The notes beneath the pieces were generated by a model. It was not told the origin of the DNA and did no database searches. It saw only the letters and a program-made list of their open reading frames with translations. From NCBI GenBank assembly GCA_015485455.1, contig WFTN01000376.1:1-17106 (forward strand): a stretch of DNA of 17,106 nucleotides. The letters run 5' to 3'. The translations under genes and the position numbers were made by a program. The stretch comes from Planctomycetota bacterium (GTDB lineage Bacteria; Planctomycetota; GCA-002687715; DRQF01). The number at the start of each line of letters is the position of its first letter. The first letter of the stretch is position 1. This document shows positions 2,838-13,121 of this stretch, piece after piece.

Positions 2838-4025
2838 TTAGTCCTCGCGAGCCTCTTTGCCCTTCCCTTTGACGTTGATCCGGAATCGGTCTTCATCTTG
2901 ATGTTGTAACCACCAAGCCCGTGCTTTCACTAGCAACTTGGGGTCATCATTCTTCCAATTCTGACCGCCGATGAGACCAAGGGAATGAGCCGCCCGTTTG
3001 ACCAGAGAAATTGGGACAGGAACATCTTCTGGGCTAACCTCTTTCTTGCCTGTTTCCTCGAGGAATTTCCGTCGAAAATCGTGAAATTGGTTGGGACCAG
3101 CCTGAATATAGAGGGCTTCCAGGTGTTCTGCCGCAGACTGGCTGAATGGCCTCGTATCAACAAGGAATTCTCCTAAGGCCCGAACCGCCGCCACTCGCAA
3201 TCTGCGCCCCAAGGGGTCCTTTTCGTTCTGACCCGGCTTCGGTGGCATTAGTTGTCGGCGGACGGAGTCCCAATCTCTGGCACCATGTCCGGTCAAGAAA
3301 CGCCCAGTTAAGAGCCGACCGTCGTTCCCACAAATACGCCCGGCAAGTTCACGATGTTGCATTTCAGCATAGATGTCGTTGAGGCCCTTCTTTTGGCTTT
3401 CGTTGAGATTCTTGAGCTTCTCAAGTGACCGTGACTTCTTGTAGAGCTCGATGCCTCGCTCGAAGCTCCTTTTGGCAAACTTGAAGGGGTGATTGTGTTT
3501 CATGGCCTCGACACACTGACACCCAGAAATTCCATATACACGACTGCCAGCCCCATTGATCATGACGAAATTGCTGAAGATCATGCTGGTCCAGGGATTA
3601 TCTTTGTATTGATTCTTCCACCACGAAAGGCAGGGGACATCTTGAGGGTAGCCAACATCCGTTGTGTTGACTAAGGCCGGGATAGTCTCTTGGTTGATTT
3701 GCTCCGGGAACCCCGGAACTTCGAGCAAGCGCGAACGCATGGCGTAATGGCCTAGTCAGGCGTAGGGACTGTTGCAGTCACCAAGGAATCGACAAAGAAA
3801 CACAACAAAAACAGGTTTGTCGAGCCGCCTCCCCTTGGCCATGGCGGTCTTGAGATCAGTTTCCCATTTTATGCCGTCGTTCTTGGCTGCTTGGGCAGCC
3901 GAACAGAAACCTTCCTGCTTGAGTTGGGCTTCGTTTTCTTGGGCTTTTAGATGTGCCGCAAAGAACATGAACATCGTGACGACGCCCAGGAAGAAGAACC
4001 AATTTGTTTGTTGGAATTTTCTCAT
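2838..4025 (-). CDS. Secreted thioredoxin-like plus HEAT-like protein with one in-frame TGA (putative selenoprotein or nonsense allele)
   Basis: The start ATG at 4025 has a GGAGA ribosome site about 10 bases upstream and gives a signal peptide (WFFFLGVVTMFMFFAAHLKAQ). The frame runs through residue 89, meets TGA at 3758-3756 (codon 90), and continues in the same frame as LGHYAMRSRLLEV to a TAA at 2840-2838, 395 residues in all. Residues about 45-190 look like a thioredoxin-fold domain of planctomycete type (DLKTAMAKGRRLDKPVFVVF, later MIFSNFVMINGAGSRVYGI). From about 230 to the end, short helical repeats (RVAAVRALGEFL, VKRAAHSLGLIG, KARAWWLQHQDEDR) resemble HEAT repeats. A Cys six residues before the TGA (DCNSPYA-TGA) could be a redox partner. 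Splitting this into an 89-residue and a 300-residue gene would ignore the shared frame and place the second start inside the fold. Alternatives are a recent nonsense mutation (for example from TGG or CGA) or a base-calling error. It lies downstream of the redoxin fusion gene on the same strand (117-bp gap). Confidence 0.7.
3726..3741 (-). promoter_or_regulatory. Weak SECIS-like hairpin after the TGA at 3756-3758
   Basis: On the coding (minus) strand, CAUGCG-UUCG-CGCUUG forms a hairpin with one U-U mismatch. Its apical loop begins after exactly 20 nt from the TGA, inside the 16-37 nt window I know for bacterial SECIS elements. The loop UUCG lacks the G usually expected in its first two positions, unless the closing G-C pair opens. 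A second, stronger hairpin (3699-3728, CCGGG/CCCGG over TTGCT/AGCAA) has its loop about 44 nt from the TGA, outside the usual range. Support for recoding here is therefore modest. Confidence 0.3.
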
Positions 4026-4142: not shown

Positions 4143-5960
4143 TTAGCGACCAAGATTCTCGAGGTATTCGCGAACGTCTTTTCTCTCTAACAACGGGTCC
4201 TCGGGTATGGCTAGGTCCATCATGATGAGGAGCATCTCGTCGCGGGCAGACGGCCCCCAGGATACGAGTTTTGGTGGACGATTGGGGTTGAGAGGGTTTT
4301 CCGCTGAATTGTCGAATGTTCCCGTTAATCGGAGTACACTCCCGGCATGGACGGTTTTCGGTTGGGGAAAGACGTATGGCATCTGCCAATTGAAGTCCCA
4401 ATCGTTGATACGTAAGAGTTCGTCTTCCTTGCCATCAGGGTGTTCGACGGAGAATCGAATCTTGCGGCCGAGGAAATGCATGTGGGGGCCCAAGGCCAGA
4501 AGCTCCACCGTCAATGGTGCGGTTTCTGTGCATTCTGCCACGAATTCGCTGCGCCCAGCGGGGATCGACAGGTCTGCTTTGCGTAGGGCCAAGGTGACGA
4601 CATGGTGCTTGACCACTTCGTTCGCGAAACGCAATCCAATCTTCAAGCGACATTTCGCTGGTTTTCCCCTTTTGGTGAAATGAACTTGAACGACAACATC
4701 TGAATGGGCTTTGATCGCTTTCGCGTAGCCCGTTGGGAGGGAGTGAGGCAGGGCTCCTAAGGCCCAAGCACCCAGAGTTGCGTCGGGCACAAAACCAGGG
4801 TCGCCAAATCGGCGGTATCCGGGCTTGGGGTCCGCCATGTCCATTTTTCGTGCTGAATCGCTTGTATCGACGAACGCTAACATGTGATGAAAGTTTTCTG
4901 CGGGTTCAGGACGAAATTCGACGCTCTTGATCAGTCGATTGGTCAGCAAGTTGGATGGCAGCACAAACCAGACGTATTCATCTGGGCCATCTGCGGACAA
5001 CTCGTATTCCTCTTTTAGTTGGAGGATGTGGTCCGGGGCACTCTTCCAACCTTTGGGCCAAATGACCTGCGGGGGGGTGTCTTTGGGATCTCCCTTGGGC
5101 ATTCCGCCATCCACCCACTCTTTGATTTTTCGTTTCTCGGAATCCAATAGGCGCGCATCCCCGAGGAATCTGTTTCTCGGGCCGGATGCTCGCCATGGGG
5201 GCATGGCGCCGGATTGAGTTTGTTGCACAATGTCTTTGGACATTGTTCTGACCTGCCCGTATGTGATCAAGGAAAAAGGTGCAGGTTCGCCGGGCCGATG
5301 ACACTTTTGACAATGACGTTGGATCAATCCTTGGATATCGCGGTGCCAAGTGATTGATGTGGAAGTAGGTATCTCCGATACCGCTTTCGGGATTAGTCAG
5401 CCCCAGGATTCGGTGTGAACAACTCGTGGTCTCTTCCCATCCAAGAGTGCGGCGATGGCGTTCTGGAGATCGTGGCTCCTGATAGGACGACGTTGTGATT
5501 GGCTGGCCCAGCGATCGTCAATACGCCCGGAATATTCGATGGCCTGATTTTTGCCAAACAAAAACACTTGACTTGTATTTGTAGCACCTACCGCTTTGAC
5601 GCTGAGGCGAAGCGGGTCCTTCAAAATTGTGCAGTCGACTTTGAAATTCTTGGCATGACCCCTGATTGCTTCATCCGATTCGTTGCCCACCATCACCATG
5701 ATGAACTTAACACCCCGGTTCTTGAATTTCTCTTGGAGTGAATTCCAAGTTGGCATGTAAGAGTTTGTGATCGGACAAACGGATGTGCAGAACATGAGGA
5801 CAGTCAGAGTGCTCTTCGATGACGAAAAAAGAGTGTGGATCTTTCCTTGCGTGTCACAGAGACTCACCGGCGCGATTGACTTTTGGTCCTGGCAAAGAAG
5901 GTCGCCAGCCGGTACAACGATGCTCAGCAGGACGAAAACTAGGGTATTGAATAGTCTCAT
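4143..5960 (-). CDS. Redoxin - cytochrome c (CxxCH) - PHM-like copper monooxygenase fusion, putative selenoprotein (Sec at TGA 5399-5397)
   Basis: The start ATG at 5960 gives a signal peptide (LVFVLLSIVVPAGDLLC). A redoxin domain follows (residues about 27-180, FCTSVCP with Cys58 and Cys62, ending SGRIDDRWASQSQRRPIRSH). Codon 188 is TGA in HTESWG-TGA-LI, and the frame continues unbroken for 417 codons. Next comes a cytochrome module: Cys217-x-x-Cys220-His221 (HCQKCHRPGEPAPF), with MPPW Met253 as the likely axial ligand. Then comes a copper type II ascorbate-dependent monooxygenase-like part that keeps the full PHM ligand set by motif: His358-His359-Met (HHM), His427 (VHF), His493/His495 (HMH) and Met576 (DEM). 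In relatives I remember, the TGA site is Cys (Gly-Cys-x-Ile), and the redoxin and cytochrome parts are one polypeptide. A TTG at 5327 as start of a separate gene would drop the linker and the export signal, so I read one 605-residue exported protein. The main alternative is a nonsense mutation. Confidence 0.8.
5368..5382 (-). promoter_or_regulatory. Putative bacterial SECIS element
   Basis: On the coding strand, GGUAUC-GGA-GAUACC is a perfect 6-bp stem with a 3-nt loop. The stem begins 14 nt and the loop 20 nt after the TGA at 5399-5397. This fits the bacterial SECIS pattern as I know it: apical loop 16-37 nt from UGA, loop of 3-14 nt, and a G in the first two loop positions. A further GAA/UUC pairing below a 3x3 internal loop is possible. 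It lies inside the open reading frame, as expected in bacteria. The hairpin is seen; SelB binding is inference. Confidence 0.55.
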
Positions 5961-6067: not shown

Positions 6068-7801
6068 CTATTCTTGTCGACAGAACTCAACGACTTCGGG
6101 TTTAATTGTCATGGGGCGTTCCAAGCCAGAGAGGTCCATGCCGGATTCGACGAGGTGGGGGAGGTGCCCACCGTTACAAACCAATGTGCGGTTATTGTTG
6201 ACTGAGAGCATGTTCTTCAGTTGCTGGACTTCATCTGGTTGCATGCCGGTTGAGACCACGTATTCGCAATGATCGTTATCCTGACTCAGGATAGTGACGC
6301 CGTAGTGTTCTGGATTCTTAAATACTTCCGTATCTGGGTGAAGTAGGAAGTCGCCGACGAATGCCGTCAGGCCAAAGTCCGCTCTATGGTCAAAGAGAAA
6401 TTTGGCTGTGTTCATGACGTCTTGCCGATCTTCCGTGGGGAAGCCAATAAACCAAAGTAGCTCGGCGGAGACACCGGCCTTTCGAAGGTTCTTAAGCATC
6501 TGGGGGAGATCGTTGAGGTCGTAGCCTTTCTCCATAAGGTTGAGTACGTCTTGATTTGCGGACTCAAAGCCCATAAGGAGGCTCTTGCATCCACCTTCAC
6601 CTAAGAGTTGGCAATACTCGGGGTTCAAGAGAGCTTTTTCAAATTTCATGCCGCCACCCCAATGAACCTCAAGATTCTCGTCTTTGACGATCTGCGCCAA
6701 ATTCTTGGCACCATTGGGCGGAATACTCGAGTCTTGCATGTAGATATAGCGTGCCCCATACCGTTCAGCTAAGTCTTTGACGTCGGCGCGAATCTTGTCC
6801 GAGCTCGATTGGCGGTAGTTTTCACGCCAACCGATGCTGCAGAAAGTGCACTTGCCCCAATAACAACCTCGAGAAATCATCAGTGGATAGACTGGGCCTG
6901 GGGTCAAATAAAGATCCATGTCTGCCGTGTCGAAGTCTGGAATCGGCAGGTCATCCATCGGCTCGAGGTAGGCCGTTTCTGTGGTGCGAATGAGCTCCTT
7001 GTTCGCATTTAAGTAGATGAAATTGCGGGCATCTTCGAGTTTTGCATGGCCTTCCAAGGCCGCGACGAGCTCGACGATGGCTGTTTCACCATCGCCGAAA
7101 CAAATTGTATCGGTGAACTCGAAGATCCAATTGTTAGTCAACCATTTGTCGAGATAGAGCGAAATTAGAGGGCCACCCATGCTTATGTGTAGGCTGGGCT
7201 TTCTTGCTCTCAAGAGGCGCGCCAATCGGACCGCTTCAACCGCTTGTTCTGGGAATGCCACGGAGATCGCGATCATTTCTGGGGCATCTTGCAAGACCGA
7301 GTCCAAGAAGACTTCTTCGTAAAGGTCTCTCACAGGGGACCATGGGTCCGCGACTTGTTGTGCGATCATATCAGCACCAAAATTTTCTCGATGCGGCGAG
7401 ATGACTGGATCCAGCTGGTAATAGAAGCCCAATACATCAACCACTGTCCAAAACGCTTTCTTGAACAAAGGCTGGTCGAAGCACCGGACTCGGTCGCGCA
7501 AAATGTGTTTACAATTCTCCCCATCCAAGACTTTCTCTTCCAATTGGGCAAGCATCTCCGTCAAACGATCTGCTTCGCCGCCTTGTCCTTGGTGGCGCAG
7601 TTGTTCGATTAATTGTCGAGCGCCATGAAGGATCATCTCTGATCTTTGACGATTCAAAAATAGATCTGCCGCCATGGCGTTGAGATCATAGATTCGAGGT
7701 TCGTGGCCAGCGTTCTTGAGCGCCGCTGCCAGCAGGGGGAGCGAGTGATACATGGGGTTGGGAAGGCACAACGAATTGGGAAATACGACAGAGACTCTCA
7801 T
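6068..7801 (-). CDS. B12-binding-like radical SAM protein (1)
   Basis: This is a 577-residue protein read from ATG 7801, which begins the fold directly (MRVSVVFPNSLCLPNPMYHS). A longer GTG start at 7861 would add 20 residues of unrelated sequence and lacks a spaced ribosome site. The N-terminal half is a Rossmann-like B12-binding type domain (PLLAAALKNAGHEPRIYDLN; later APEMIAISVAF and SLHISMGGPLISLY) with a long helical insertion. The radical SAM core follows with the 4Fe-4S motif Cys-x3-Cys-x2-Cys (RGCYWGKCTFCSIGW; first Cys codon at 6865-6863), a GGG-type strand (VHWGGGMKFEKAL) and a GFES motif. No DxHxxG B12 base-off motif is seen, as is common in this group. The helical insertion (FYYQLDPVISPHRENF to LYEEVFLDSVL) resembles that of radical SAM enzymes linked to RiPP maturation, but no precursor peptide was found. 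The substrate is unknown. It diverges from the hydrolase-like gene and lies upstream of the redoxin fusion gene. Confidence 0.85.
   Translation of the reverse strand: MRVSVVFPNSLCLPNPMYHSLPLLAAALKNAGHEPRIYDLNAMAADLFLNRQRSEMILHGARQLIEQLRHQGQGGEADRLTEMLAQLEEKVLDGENCKHILRDRVRCFDQPLFKKAFWTVVDVLGFYYQLDPVISPHRENFGADMIAQQVADPWSPVRDLYEEVFLDSVLQDAPEMIAISVAFPEQAVEAVRLARLLRARKPSLHISMGGPLISLYLDKWLTNNWIFEFTDTICFGDGETAIVELVAALEGHAKLEDARNFIYLNANKELIRTTETAYLEPMDDLPIPDFDTADMDLYLTPGPVYPLMISRGCYWGKCTFCSIGWRENYRQSSSDKIRADVKDLAERYGARYIYMQDSSIPPNGAKNLAQIVKDENLEVHWGGGMKFEKALLNPEYCQLLGEGGCKSLLMGFESANQDVLNLMEKGYDLNDLPQMLKNLRKAGVSAELLWFIGFPTEDRQDVMNTAKFLFDHRADFGLTAFVGDFLLHPDTEVFKNPEHYGVTILSQDNDHCEYVVSTGMQPDEVQQLKNMLSVNNNRTLVCNGGHLPHLVESGMDLSGLERPMTIKPEVVEFCRQE
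6154..6172. repeat. Hairpin-forming 19-mer, copy 2 (inside radical SAM gene)
   Basis: GGTGGGGGAGGTGCCCACC differs from the copy at 6038-6056 only in the loop region. Here it encodes part of NGGHLPHLVES on the minus strand. The likeness may be chance or may mark a small duplication. Confidence 0.3.
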
Positions 7802-7932
7802 AGTTGGCTCAACATCGATCAAGGAAAAGAAGGTGCGACCTAACAGATTCGCATCGCCCACCCTAGTAGAGTAGACTATTGTCGAATCTTGGTAAACAAC
7901 TATCGGACTCAGCGTTCAGGAATCTATCGGGT

Positions 7933-9711: not shown

Positions 9712-9916
9712 ACGGATTCTCGTGCCTTTGGGATGTTCTGCCCAATCATTCTTGAAAAAGATATTCGCATTGCTCAGGTAGTTGATTAAGATCGCGTATC
9801 TTCCACGATTACCATGGTCTATGACCTGGGCAGGGCAGAGAATTCTCAGCCCTCTCAGGGGGCGTTGACTTACAGCCGTGCAGGCGGAGTCTTTCTCAAT
9901 TGGAGCCGTAGTTCTC
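9712..9916 (+). other. Apparent frameshifted remnant of the GH42-like C-terminal domain
   Basis: After the TGA the same frame reads TDSRAFGMF. A second frame offers DVLPNHS, a third SFLKKIFALLR and IAYLPRL, and the first frame again gives MVYDLGRAENSQPSQGALTY. Joined across indels these pieces resemble the end of GH42-like proteins (a TDS...NxxFL...LPR...VYDL pattern, from memory). No intact gene fits this stretch. The plus-strand open frame at 9814-10056 overlaps the next gene and looks spurious. Either the hydrolase 3' end has decayed or the assembly has indels here. Confidence 0.35.
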
Positions 9917-11479
9917 TTGAATATCACGTTAGCTCCCCGCGGAGGACTAAGTCACAGCGGAGGGAAGGTCGTCTTGTTCTTCCCCAAGTTTCGGGCACCG
10001 CAGCATCCCGTCTGGATGCCACTCGAAATCATGACGCTTGGTGTCTCCTTGTGTGACGCTGGCTTCGAAGTCCAACTGATCGACGAGAGAACCGAGCCTG
10101 ACGCCGTAGGGATTGCTAATGTTGCTGTTCAGGGGGCCTTGTTCATCGGAATCTCAGCTCGTCCTGGCGACCAGGTTGATCGATCCTTGGAACTTTTCGA
10201 CTTGCTCAAGGAACATCACCCTGGCACTCCGATTGTCTGGGGTGGGTGGTTTCCTTCGACATTTCCGGACGCCTGTTTGAAGATTGAGAACCTTGATTTT
10301 GTAGTTCAAGGAGGAGCGGATACATCCTTAGTTGAACTTGCTTTGCGTATCCGTGACGCCGATGGAGATGTGCGAGGGCTCAAGGGCGTGAATGCTCGTG
10401 ATGGGAAGAATATTGTACGCAATCCACGACGGCCTCTTGAGAACCTTGCCAAGACACCGAGAATCCCCTGGGCTTTGTTTCCCGTTCACGAATATCTCAC
10501 AGCTGATGGTTGTATCAATCTCTACACCAGTCGCGGGTGCCCAGGGCGTTGTCGGTTCTGTGGTGTCCCCAGTGTCTTTCCCGGAGTTTGGACTGGCTAC
10601 GAAGCCGAGAGAGTTGTCGATGATATTGAGACGCTTCATGGAATGGGGGGACGAATTTTTAAGGTTCTCGATACGGATATGTTTCCCGACCACGAACGTG
10701 TACGGGAGATCTGCCGTCTCCTCATCCAACGCGACTTGAATATTCGTTGGATTGCAGACGTCCGAATAAAGGACGTGATTCAGTTTGACTCGGAAATGTG
10801 GGACTTGTTGCGCCGTAGTGGTTGCGCCGAGTTGGAAACTGGAGGTGAATCTGGAGCCGAAGACCTACTTGACGCGATGCAAAAGGAATGCACTGCTGGA
10901 GAAATCTACGATGGCGTGAAAGTGATTGTCGACCACGGGATTGCAGCTCGAGTTAACTTCATCTTGGGATTGCCGAATGAAACCAAGAATCTGCTCAATG
11001 AAACCCTGCGCCTTGTTCATCGGATCGGACTTCTGGGACCCAAAGCCAAATTCCAATTCTATCGTTTCACCCCCTCTCCAGCGACGCGGTTTGGTTCAGA
11101 AACTTGGCACTCCAAAAATTCAAGGCACGATGGAAGCGTGCCTGTGGATGTTCGAGCTCTCAATGGCGTGCCCATCAACCATGATAAAGCTCCTATGTTT
11201 TGGTTGAAGAAATCGGACGAGGCAAGAGTTAAGCGTTTCTACTATTTGCACCTGCCATTGGCCTACTACTTCCAAGATGACGGGCGAAAAGGGATCAAGC
11301 GTTGGGGATTGAGGTTGCTCATGAAATTGGCGAGGGCGCGGATTCGTTTTGGATTTTCATCGCTTCCCTTCGAGAGCTTTCTTTGTGATGCCTTTGATCG
11401 TCCGCTCCCGAGATCGAGAGAGCATGAGTGGCTTGAACTCAATGAGGCAGCCAGCGCCGAGATGCCAATTGTGGAATAG
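9917..11479 (+). CDS. B12-binding-like radical SAM protein (2)
   Basis: The B12-binding-like domain begins at KVVLFFPKFRAPQHPVW (KVV near base 9967) and runs through SLCDAGFEVQLIDERTEPDA, ALFIGISARPGDQV and TPIVWGGWFPSTFPDACL. The radical SAM core carries Cys-x3-Cys-x2-Cys in SRGCPGRCRFCGVPS (first Cys codon 10538-10540), followed by KVLDTDMFPDHERV, IRWIADVRIKDV and ETGGESGAEDLL, a variant of the usual GxES strand. A C-terminal region of about 120 residues (FYRFTPSPATRF to the end) is helical and Arg-rich. The start is uncertain: GTG 9878 is the longest, while TTG 9917 has GGAG 11 bases upstream and removes a tail that has no homology I recognise, so I chose TTG. The likely role is SAM-dependent chemistry on an unknown substrate. 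It converges with the third radical SAM gene. Confidence 0.85.
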   Translation: MNITLAPRGGLSHSGGKVVLFFPKFRAPQHPVWMPLEIMTLGVSLCDAGFEVQLIDERTEPDAVGIANVAVQGALFIGISARPGDQVDRSLELFDLLKEHHPGTPIVWGGWFPSTFPDACLKIENLDFVVQGGADTSLVELALRIRDADGDVRGLKGVNARDGKNIVRNPRRPLENLAKTPRIPWALFPVHEYLTADGCINLYTSRGCPGRCRFCGVPSVFPGVWTGYEAERVVDDIETLHGMGGRIFKVLDTDMFPDHERVREICRLLIQRDLNIRWIADVRIKDVIQFDSEMWDLLRRSGCAELETGGESGAEDLLDAMQKECTAGEIYDGVKVIVDHGIAARVNFILGLPNETKNLLNETLRLVHRIGLLGPKAKFQFYRFTPSPATRFGSETWHSKNSRHDGSVPVDVRALNGVPINHDKAPMFWLKKSDEARVKRFYYLHLPLAYYFQDDGRKGIKRWGLRLLMKLARARIRFGFSSLPFESFLCDAFDRPLPRSREHEWLELNEAASAEMPIVE

Positions 11480-11564: not shown

Positions 11565-13121
11565 CTAACTCCGTATCTCGTTGTTGAATGGATAGTAGGT
11601 CCCATGATGAGGGATTCCGCCTGCCTCACGCAGTAACTTCGCAATTTTTGACCGAACAACTTCGCTGACCGGAAGGGTCTGGAGATCGTATCCTGTTTCT
11701 GTGACGCAGAAATCTATGTATTCGGCGATGGAGGTCTTGGAATGGCAATCGTCGGTTAAGTCGATCATTCTGGTCAGGCGATAGTCATCGAAATGAAACT
11801 TGAGAGACGTGTCCTGGATCATCTTTCGGATTTCAGCTGGGCTGACTTCGGTGAACCAATCCTGGCTGTCCTGGGGTACGGTGGAGTAGCCAAATTCCGC
11901 ATCCATCTTACCGTTCGTTAGATCCGTAACTTGATTGCGAATCTCAGTGCCTTCGAATGGCTGGACATGAAACATGAGCGCCATGTGGGCCGCCGACGAC
12001 AGTAGGTCGTCGATTGTCAGTTGCATTTCCTTCCGTGTCTCGGTGGGGAATCCAAACATAGTAAAGGTCGATGTAAAAATGTTGTACTTATCAGAAAGTT
12101 CGATCGCCTGTCGAAGACGATCCAGCTTGTTGTGCTTCTTGACAAGTTTCTGAATGCGTGGGGAGGCACTCTCAATGGCGAGGCTCCAGTGGTAGGTCCC
12201 TGCTTCTTTGGCTGCTGCGATAAACTCTTCTGTCATGAGGTCACCACGCAGACCGTTGGGGAAAGCGAAGGACAATTTCCAATTGCGTTTCACGACTCCA
12301 TCAAAAAAATCTATGGCTCTTTTTCGATCGGCGTTGAAGATGTCGTCGACGATTTGAAACTCAGTGACGCCATGGCTGGCCATGAGTCCTTCCATTTCAG
12401 TATAGACGTTCTCAATGCTTCTTTTTCTCACTGTCTTGCCGAAATGGTCGTGACAGTATGTGCACTGGAAATAACATCCCCGCGTTGTGAAAAGCGATGT
12501 TGCTTTTCCTTTGGGACGAAGGCCAGTCATGGTCTTAAACTCTTGATAGGCGTCAAGGTCGATTCCCGTGTAGTCTGGGAATTCGATCGTATCCAAGTCT
12601 GAGATGAGTGGGCGTGAGCCTGACGTCCTGCGTCCCTTGCCATCCCACCACTGAACTCCAGTAACATTGTGCCCATTTCCACCGGCCAAGATATCGGCGA
12701 CCAGTTCAACGAAGGTGATTTCCCCTTCCAAAGGCACGATAAGATCGATGTTGGAGTCCTTGAATAGGCTAAGGGAGAGAGTTGCTGCGTGTGGTCCCCC
12801 CGCAACAACGATGCAGCTCGGGTTAGCTGCCTTAGCGATTTCGGCTACCATGGGATAAACATCGCTTTGCGACGAGAACCCTCGAATGCCAATGATGTCT
12901 GGTTGGACGTCCGCGAGGAATGACTCCGCCACTGGGCGCAGGAATGTTTGTTGTGGTATCAAGCCCATGTCGCCCACGATGATCTCAACACGATCACCAA
13001 ATTGGGCGCGAAGGGCGGCGGAGATGTATTGAATCCCCAGAGGGACCATGACGATTTCCCAGTTGTCTTTCTCGGAAGCGAGATTCACTAGGGCAATCTT
13101 TAGAGTTCTTAGTGTCGTCAC
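11565..13121 (-). CDS. B12-binding-like radical SAM protein (3)
   Basis: This is a 518-residue protein from GTG 13121, supported by a GAGG ribosome site seven bases upstream. The N-terminal domain is of B12-binding type (LKIALVNLASEKDNWE, PDIIGIRGFSSQSD, CIVVAGGPHAATLS). The linker GEITFVELVADIL and the DLDTIEFPDYTG strand are typical of this family. The 4Fe-4S motif is Cys216-x3-Cys220-x2-Cys223 (TRGCYFQCTYCHDHFGK), followed by FQIVDDIFNADRKRA, WSLAIESASPRIQKLV and FTMFGFPTETRKEM, all radical SAM core landmarks. A roughly 100-residue C-terminal tail has two Cys residues (TDDCHSK, YIDFCVTETG). Such proteins include methyltransferases and cyclases; I cannot name the substrate. The N-terminus faces a 159-bp divergent region shared with the DUF4139-like gene, which should hold both promoters, although I see no convincing -35/-10 pair. 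Confidence 0.88.
   Translation of the reverse strand: MTTLRTLKIALVNLASEKDNWEIVMVPLGIQYISAALRAQFGDRVEIIVGDMGLIPQQTFLRPVAESFLADVQPDIIGIRGFSSQSDVYPMVAEIAKAANPSCIVVAGGPHAATLSLSLFKDSNIDLIVPLEGEITFVELVADILAGGNGHNVTGVQWWDGKGRRTSGSRPLISDLDTIEFPDYTGIDLDAYQEFKTMTGLRPKGKATSLFTTRGCYFQCTYCHDHFGKTVRKRSIENVYTEMEGLMASHGVTEFQIVDDIFNADRKRAIDFFDGVVKRNWKLSFAFPNGLRGDLMTEEFIAAAKEAGTYHWSLAIESASPRIQKLVKKHNKLDRLRQAIELSDKYNIFTSTFTMFGFPTETRKEMQLTIDDLLSSAAHMALMFHVQPFEGTEIRNQVTDLTNGKMDAEFGYSTVPQDSQDWFTEVSPAEIRKMIQDTSLKFHFDDYRLTRMIDLTDDCHSKTSIAEYIDFCVTETGYDLQTLPVSEVVRSKIAKLLREAGGIPHHGTYYPFNNEIRS

Follow-up and report, generated by a model that had tools for sequence, protein, structure and literature searches.

A putative selenoprotein joining a Gly-Sec redoxin, a c-type heme and a PHM-type copper monooxygenase domain in Planctomycetota

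Introduction

Selenoproteins with selenocysteine (Sec) in an AhpC/TSA-redoxin fold have been predicted computationally: the Prx-like thiol:disulfide oxidoreductase and Redoxin families (PF00578/PF08534), which carry Sec in a UxxC motif, appear in Table 1 of a 2026 inventory of 119 prokaryotic selenoprotein families (PMC13188914). The protein analysed here would place Sec in the same fold. Relative to the entries in that table, its Sec would lie in a distal Gly-Sec motif ~125 residues after Cys62, with no Cys following, and its redoxin domain shares a fused chain with domains for heme and copper. The table also contains multiheme cytochrome selenoproteins (ExtKL and the octaheme tetrathionate reductase family), in which, as proposed here, selenium and heme c occur within the same protein; these families are different ones, and the table names neither a redoxin nor a copper monooxygenase domain for them. 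The VPGUxxT family thioredoxin-like protein (NF041383) shares a thioredoxin-like character and a Gly-Sec motif, and none of nine proteins tested matched its model at E 0.01 or better.

The same redoxin fold is found in the thioredoxin-like proteins of PDB entries 2cvb/2ywo, 3u5r, and 2ywi. These have the same distal Gly-Cys motif at the matching place, with Cys instead of Sec, and stand alone. PHM and dopamine beta-hydroxylase (DBH), which are type II copper monooxygenases, share the fold and the five-His-plus-Met ligand pattern of the copper domain. The present protein differs from them in being bacterial, in its identity of about 17%, and in carrying a c-type heme and a redoxin ahead of the copper domain in one chain. 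The animal PHM and DBH enzymes use ascorbate.

Sec machinery and putative selenoproteins have been reported in Planctomycetes (PMC4807772), and it is possible that the supplementary candidate list of that study already includes a member of the family described below. We analysed a 17,106-nucleotide stretch of a Planctomycetota genome (the window), in which a preliminary description had proposed a heme-copper-selenium chain of a kind not known among described selenoproteins. Table 1 of the 119-family inventory (PMC13188914) holds no matching family, and no NCBIfam 20.0 selenoprotein model was matched over its cut-off by either of two sets of proteins (9 and 8), the WAxxUGC model NF041054 giving weak below-cut-off matches (L065, L067, P0160). 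A literature search, in which "redoxin" was matched at word start and peroxiredoxin and thioredoxin were uncounted, returned no such family.

Results

Domain architecture of the interrupted gene

The gene occupies an otherwise open frame on the minus strand, of 605 residues if codon 188 is counted as Sec, and the TGA at 5399-5397 is its sole interruption (Table 1). The claim that a single TGA interrupts a frame encoding a redoxin domain, a CxxCH motif and PHM-type copper ligands was thereby confirmed. TGA terminates two of the seven other long frames checked within the window, which argues against its being a plain sense codon in this genome.

The N-terminal domain shows both the profile match (PF00578/PF08534) and the fold of a TlpA/PRX-like redoxin. 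The C-terminal domain combines the PHM fold with the ligand pattern of the CuH site (three His) and the CuM site (two His and Met). The roles of His358, His359, and His427 at CuH and of His493, His495, and Met576 at CuM are assigned from the PHM ligand pattern.

Table 1. Features of the candidate selenoprotein gene and the adjoining gene in the window
Feature	Position	Strand	Basis or remark
Candidate selenoprotein gene: N-terminal leader followed by GU-type redoxin, c-type heme domain and PHM-type copper monooxygenase domain	4143..5960	-	Pfam, alignment, structure
In-frame TGA, codon 188, proposed Sec codon	5397..5399	-	Cys in 54/57 homologue DNA rows; TGA in the other 3 (window's included)
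Redoxin (TlpA/PRX-like) domain, residues 32-191, conserved Cys62 and Cys/Sec188	5388..5867	-	PF00578, PF08534
SECIS-type hairpin GGTATC-GGA-GATACC, 6 bp, apical loop from nt 21 after UGA	5368..5382	-	shuffle p 0.005-0.009
CxxCH heme c site, residues 217-221	5298..5312	-	C217, C220, H221 invariant (38 sequences)
PHM-type domain, residues 308-590	4191..5039	-	structure, alignment
His358-His359, presumed CuH ligands	4884..4889	-	invariant in alignment; role from PHM ligand pattern
His427, presumed third CuH ligand	4680..4682	-	invariant in alignment; role from PHM pattern
His493-x-His495, presumed CuM ligands	4476..4484	-	invariant in alignment; role from PHM pattern
Met576, presumed CuM ligand	4233..4235	-	conserved in at least 90% of alignment; role from PHM pattern
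Neighbour gene, 395-residue frame, one in-frame TGA (codon 90, 3758-3756)	2838..4025	-	second, weaker selenoprotein candidate

Cysteine and TGA at codon 188 in three-domain homologues

The statement in the preliminary description that relatives carry Cys at the TGA proved correct. Among 57 distinct homologue DNA rows, all spanning codon 188, the codon at this site is TGC in 35, TGT in 19, TGA in 3 and no other; since the rows combine best hits with deliberately chosen loci, 3 of 57 should not be read as a frequency. Protein-database relatives with a redoxin domain also mostly have Cys at the site, with exceptions that include Thr in P0020 and Arg in P0054. The NCBI-named rows among these relatives are mixed (Planctomycetaceae, Paludisphaera, Acidobacteriota, and Kofleriaceae).

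Examination of 392 genomes of the phylum shows an internal TGA, among the matches listed, in the window's gene and in G016 and G264. The last two represent genera other than the window's, and each has the TGA exactly at the codon-188 site; an additional TAA in G016 is the terminator of its own gene. TGA in G264 contrasts with Cys at the same site in its congeners G225 and G154, and in a sample of its class, where 14 of 20 genomes match, an internal stop occurs in G264 alone. In a quickly built tree (76 rows) the proteins with TGA fall in three separate places, and the minimum number of Cys/Sec changes is three.

The expectation that related genomes would share the TGA thus held for other genera and for stand-alone redoxins (see below), and no case was shown in a close relative. 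Within the genus and family of the window's organism, no orthologue carrying this TGA was found. All that congener G001 retains of a nearer homologue is a C-terminal remnant (L132, G001:C22, 3087-3298), which matches residues 529-575 and 562-602 (span 529-602) in two reading frames, with the neighbour gene unmatched there.

Several loci considered as Sec forms were rejected. The site is occupied by Cys in G011 (L061), G063 (L060), and G026 (L066), where a stop comes only afterwards; G073 (L070) also has Cys there, and its stop is TAA. Further homologues are encoded in the window's own genome (L072 on G000:C404, and others on G000:C427 and C391), and the C404 copy spans the site and has Cys.

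Stand-alone redoxins with a putative Gly-Sec site

The phylum also has stand-alone redoxins, whose chains finish a little beyond the Gly-[Cys] motif; in these the TGA pattern is commoner than in the three-domain forms. A profile search with the stand-alone UGA forms gave 25 rows with an internal stop among the matches listed. The stop was TGA, at the same Gly-[Cys] site, in all 25 (7 first seen among relatives and 18 new), and no internal TAA or TAG occurred among these matches. The residues after the TGA in the 18 new rows are x-[IVLT]-K in 16, Ser-Ile-Gln in G157, and Ser-Ile-Ala in G213.

Against the protein database, the stand-alone profile returned 309 relatives. Among the best 120, 113 break off at the Gly that precedes the site, whereas the Cys/Sec position is Cys in 3 and Ser in 4 (P0168, P0170, P0172, and P0190); the search favours UGA forms because it started from them. 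The ends of the 113 short proteins would correspond to TGA codons in their DNA. The NCBI-named stand-alone relatives P0127, P0139, P0150, P0199, and P0213 are all from Planctomycetota. Together, these loci (L062-L065, L067-L069, and L113-L130) and proteins (P0108-P0227) form a large group with a putative Gly-Sec near the C-terminus.

A SECIS-type hairpin downstream of the TGA

The hairpin that had been noticed after the TGA is present in the window's gene, and hairpins of this type are enriched in UGA forms. The window's own is among the weaker ones. Alone it has a folding energy of -6.3 kcal/mol; its pairing probability is about 0.71 in a 45-nt context and 0.09 in a 60-nt context, and it is missing from the 63-nt minimum-energy fold.

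For comparison across genes, a hairpin was counted if it had an uninterrupted stem scoring at least 6, with GU pairs counting half, and a loop of 3-8 nt with G in one of its first two places, starting 16-30 nt after the codon. Such hairpins were found in 23 of 28 UGA forms (3 three-domain and 25 stand-alone, including the near-duplicates G003/G007 and G099/G378), against 1.5 expected from dinucleotide shuffles and against 3 of the 54 three-domain controls with Cys (Fisher p 1.5e-12). Among stand-alone genes only, they were found in 21 of 25 UGA forms vs. none of 19 Cys forms (p 6e-9), the latter being fetched profile-search rows without an internal stop. The three three-domain UGA genes alone show a modest excess over Cys forms (p 0.035). 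No hairpin of this strict definition was found in G016, G206, G263, G178, or G166; the G016 fold has 6 bp and a 9-nt loop without G in its first two places.

Sec machinery

Sec machinery had been proposed as a check on the reading, and it was found in part. The window's assembly, which totals 4.13 Mb in 614 contigs and is 77% complete, encodes SelB, and searches of it for selA, selD, and tRNA-Sec found none of the three. SelB is present as two pieces, each at a contig end, with RNGVH common to both. The N-terminal piece, at the end of contig C589, scored over the cut-off, and the C-terminal piece, at the end of C496, scored 49 bits, under the full-length cut-off. For tRNA-Sec (selC), 150 of 482 first-look candidates were scored; six matches were rejected, all lying below the cut-off and overlapping tRNAs for Ser, Cys, and Tyr.

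The genes selA, selD, and selC adjoin one another within about 2.7 kb both in congener G001 and in G002, a member of the family. Because the genes are clustered in the congener, a single contig missing from the 77%-complete assembly can explain their joint absence. An aldehyde-dehydrogenase-like gene (named by eye) lies beside selC in G001, and its best match in the window's genome has 24% identity; the lack of a close match is consistent with a missing contig without proving it.

Over 99 genomes (relatives, with the window's own included), selA was found in 70 and a tRNA-Sec match over the cut-off in 78, all 11 others of the order included, some of the weak tRNA-Sec matches possibly being other tRNAs. 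selA scored over the cut-off in 12 of the 12 other UGA-form genomes of this set and also in G264; 14 further UGA-form genomes lie outside this check. G071, which has a UGA form, contains selA, and its best tRNA-Sec match (E 1.3e-7) is absent from the over-cut-off rows listed.

Interpretation of the in-frame TGA

Cys in homologues, TGA at the same site in other genomes and the enrichment of SECIS-type hairpins support the Sec-for-Cys interpretation put forward in the preliminary description. Judged from sequence comparison, the gene very probably encodes a selenoprotein in which UGA188 is read as selenocysteine, and this is by far the best reading.

A two-gene arrangement, in which the redoxin ends at the TGA and a heme-copper protein starts anew downstream, is very unlikely. 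Split genes of this kind do exist in G065 and G001, and in the database the downstream part is annotated as a gene of its own, for a 366-aa protein. In the split relatives, however, the redoxin keeps its Gly-Cys and the heme-copper gene encodes a hydrophobic leader at its own N-terminus, whereas in the window's gene the stop is the Cys site itself and neither a leader nor an ATG lies between the TGA and CxxCH. A start at the downstream TTG (5327) would give a heme protein without an export signal.

Still a little less probable is a pseudogene or a sequencing error, TGC/TGT having become TGA by a nonsense change while the gene decays or by a miscalled base. Cys codons and TGA differ by a single base, the window's protein sits on a long branch (1.56 on the quick tree of 76 rows), and a homologous gene can decay, since congener G001 keeps only the C-terminal remnant. 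Against this reading, the alignment-invariant residues are intact across all three domains and the frame has no further stop. TGA occurs at this exact site in 27 other genes, some of them near-duplicates and most with hairpins, and the stand-alone matches listed contain no internal TAA or TAG. The downstream product is recorded from two contigs (P0002), and no full-length Cys version of it was returned from the protein database.

Read-through that inserts some other residue at UGA, such as Trp through a near-cognate or suppressor tRNA, would be expected to give a full-length product as well and can be dismissed as extremely improbable: at this position the 54 other DNA rows encode Cys and none encodes Trp, SelB and a SECIS-type hairpin are present, and two other long frames of the window end in TGA.

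The adjoining gene

The neighbour gene is also interrupted by a single in-frame TGA. Its N-terminal part matches a Trx7/PDZ (seleno)protein model weakly (18.7 bits vs. 300). In two database relatives the first residue is the same methionine, located shortly after the TGA position, which hints at a stop there in the relatives too; one relative that carries an NCBI name, P0230, is from Planctomycetota. The gene has a strong hairpin whose loop starts at nt 45 after the TGA, farther than usual, and no hairpin scoring above 4 lies within nt 16-30. Because no Cys homologue was seen at codon 90, the neighbour gene as a second Sec protein is a lead. Elsewhere in the window, three long genes (6068-7861, minus strand; 9878-11479, plus strand; 11565-13121, minus strand) encode translations that by eye resemble cobalamin-binding radical SAM proteins.

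Discussion

If UGA188 is a Sec codon, SelB and Sec-tRNA would decode it with the aid of the hairpin just downstream, and the product would be one exported polypeptide. Sec188 most likely pairs with Cys62, because Cys62 and Cys/Sec188 are the only conserved thiol positions of the redoxin. The two would form a selenylsulfide, with Sec188 most likely the resolving or electron-transfer residue. Electrons may then pass from the Cys62-Sec188 redox pair to the attached heme c and on to both copper sites; redoxin and heme would in this way replace ascorbate in driving the O2-dependent hydroxylation of a substrate by the predicted monooxygenase. We regard such a thiol/selenol-to-heme-to-copper relay in place of ascorbate as reasonable, though less likely than not.

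A wider picture, which we put forward tentatively and at somewhat less than even confidence, is that of a phylum-wide, unlisted family of Gly-Sec redoxins with Sec in place of the distal resolving Cys. The family would have escaped notice because gene callers end their predictions at UGA. Fusion to heme c and PHM domains in several lineages would make it a self-contained selenium-heme-copper relay that takes the place of ascorbate, and its neighbour in this operon would be a second Sec protein.

The candidate adds a selenoprotein family not found among the 119 families in Table 1 of the inventory (PMC13188914). That 113 of the best 120 relatives end just before the site suggests that many annotated redoxins of the phylum are cut short at a Sec codon. 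Within one genus, G264 vs. G225 and G154 forms a natural Cys/Sec pair for measuring the contribution of selenium. The three-domain form would unite, within a single exported chain, centres of selenium, heme, and type II copper, and it yields a testable claim on the electron supply of bacterial PHM-like enzymes.
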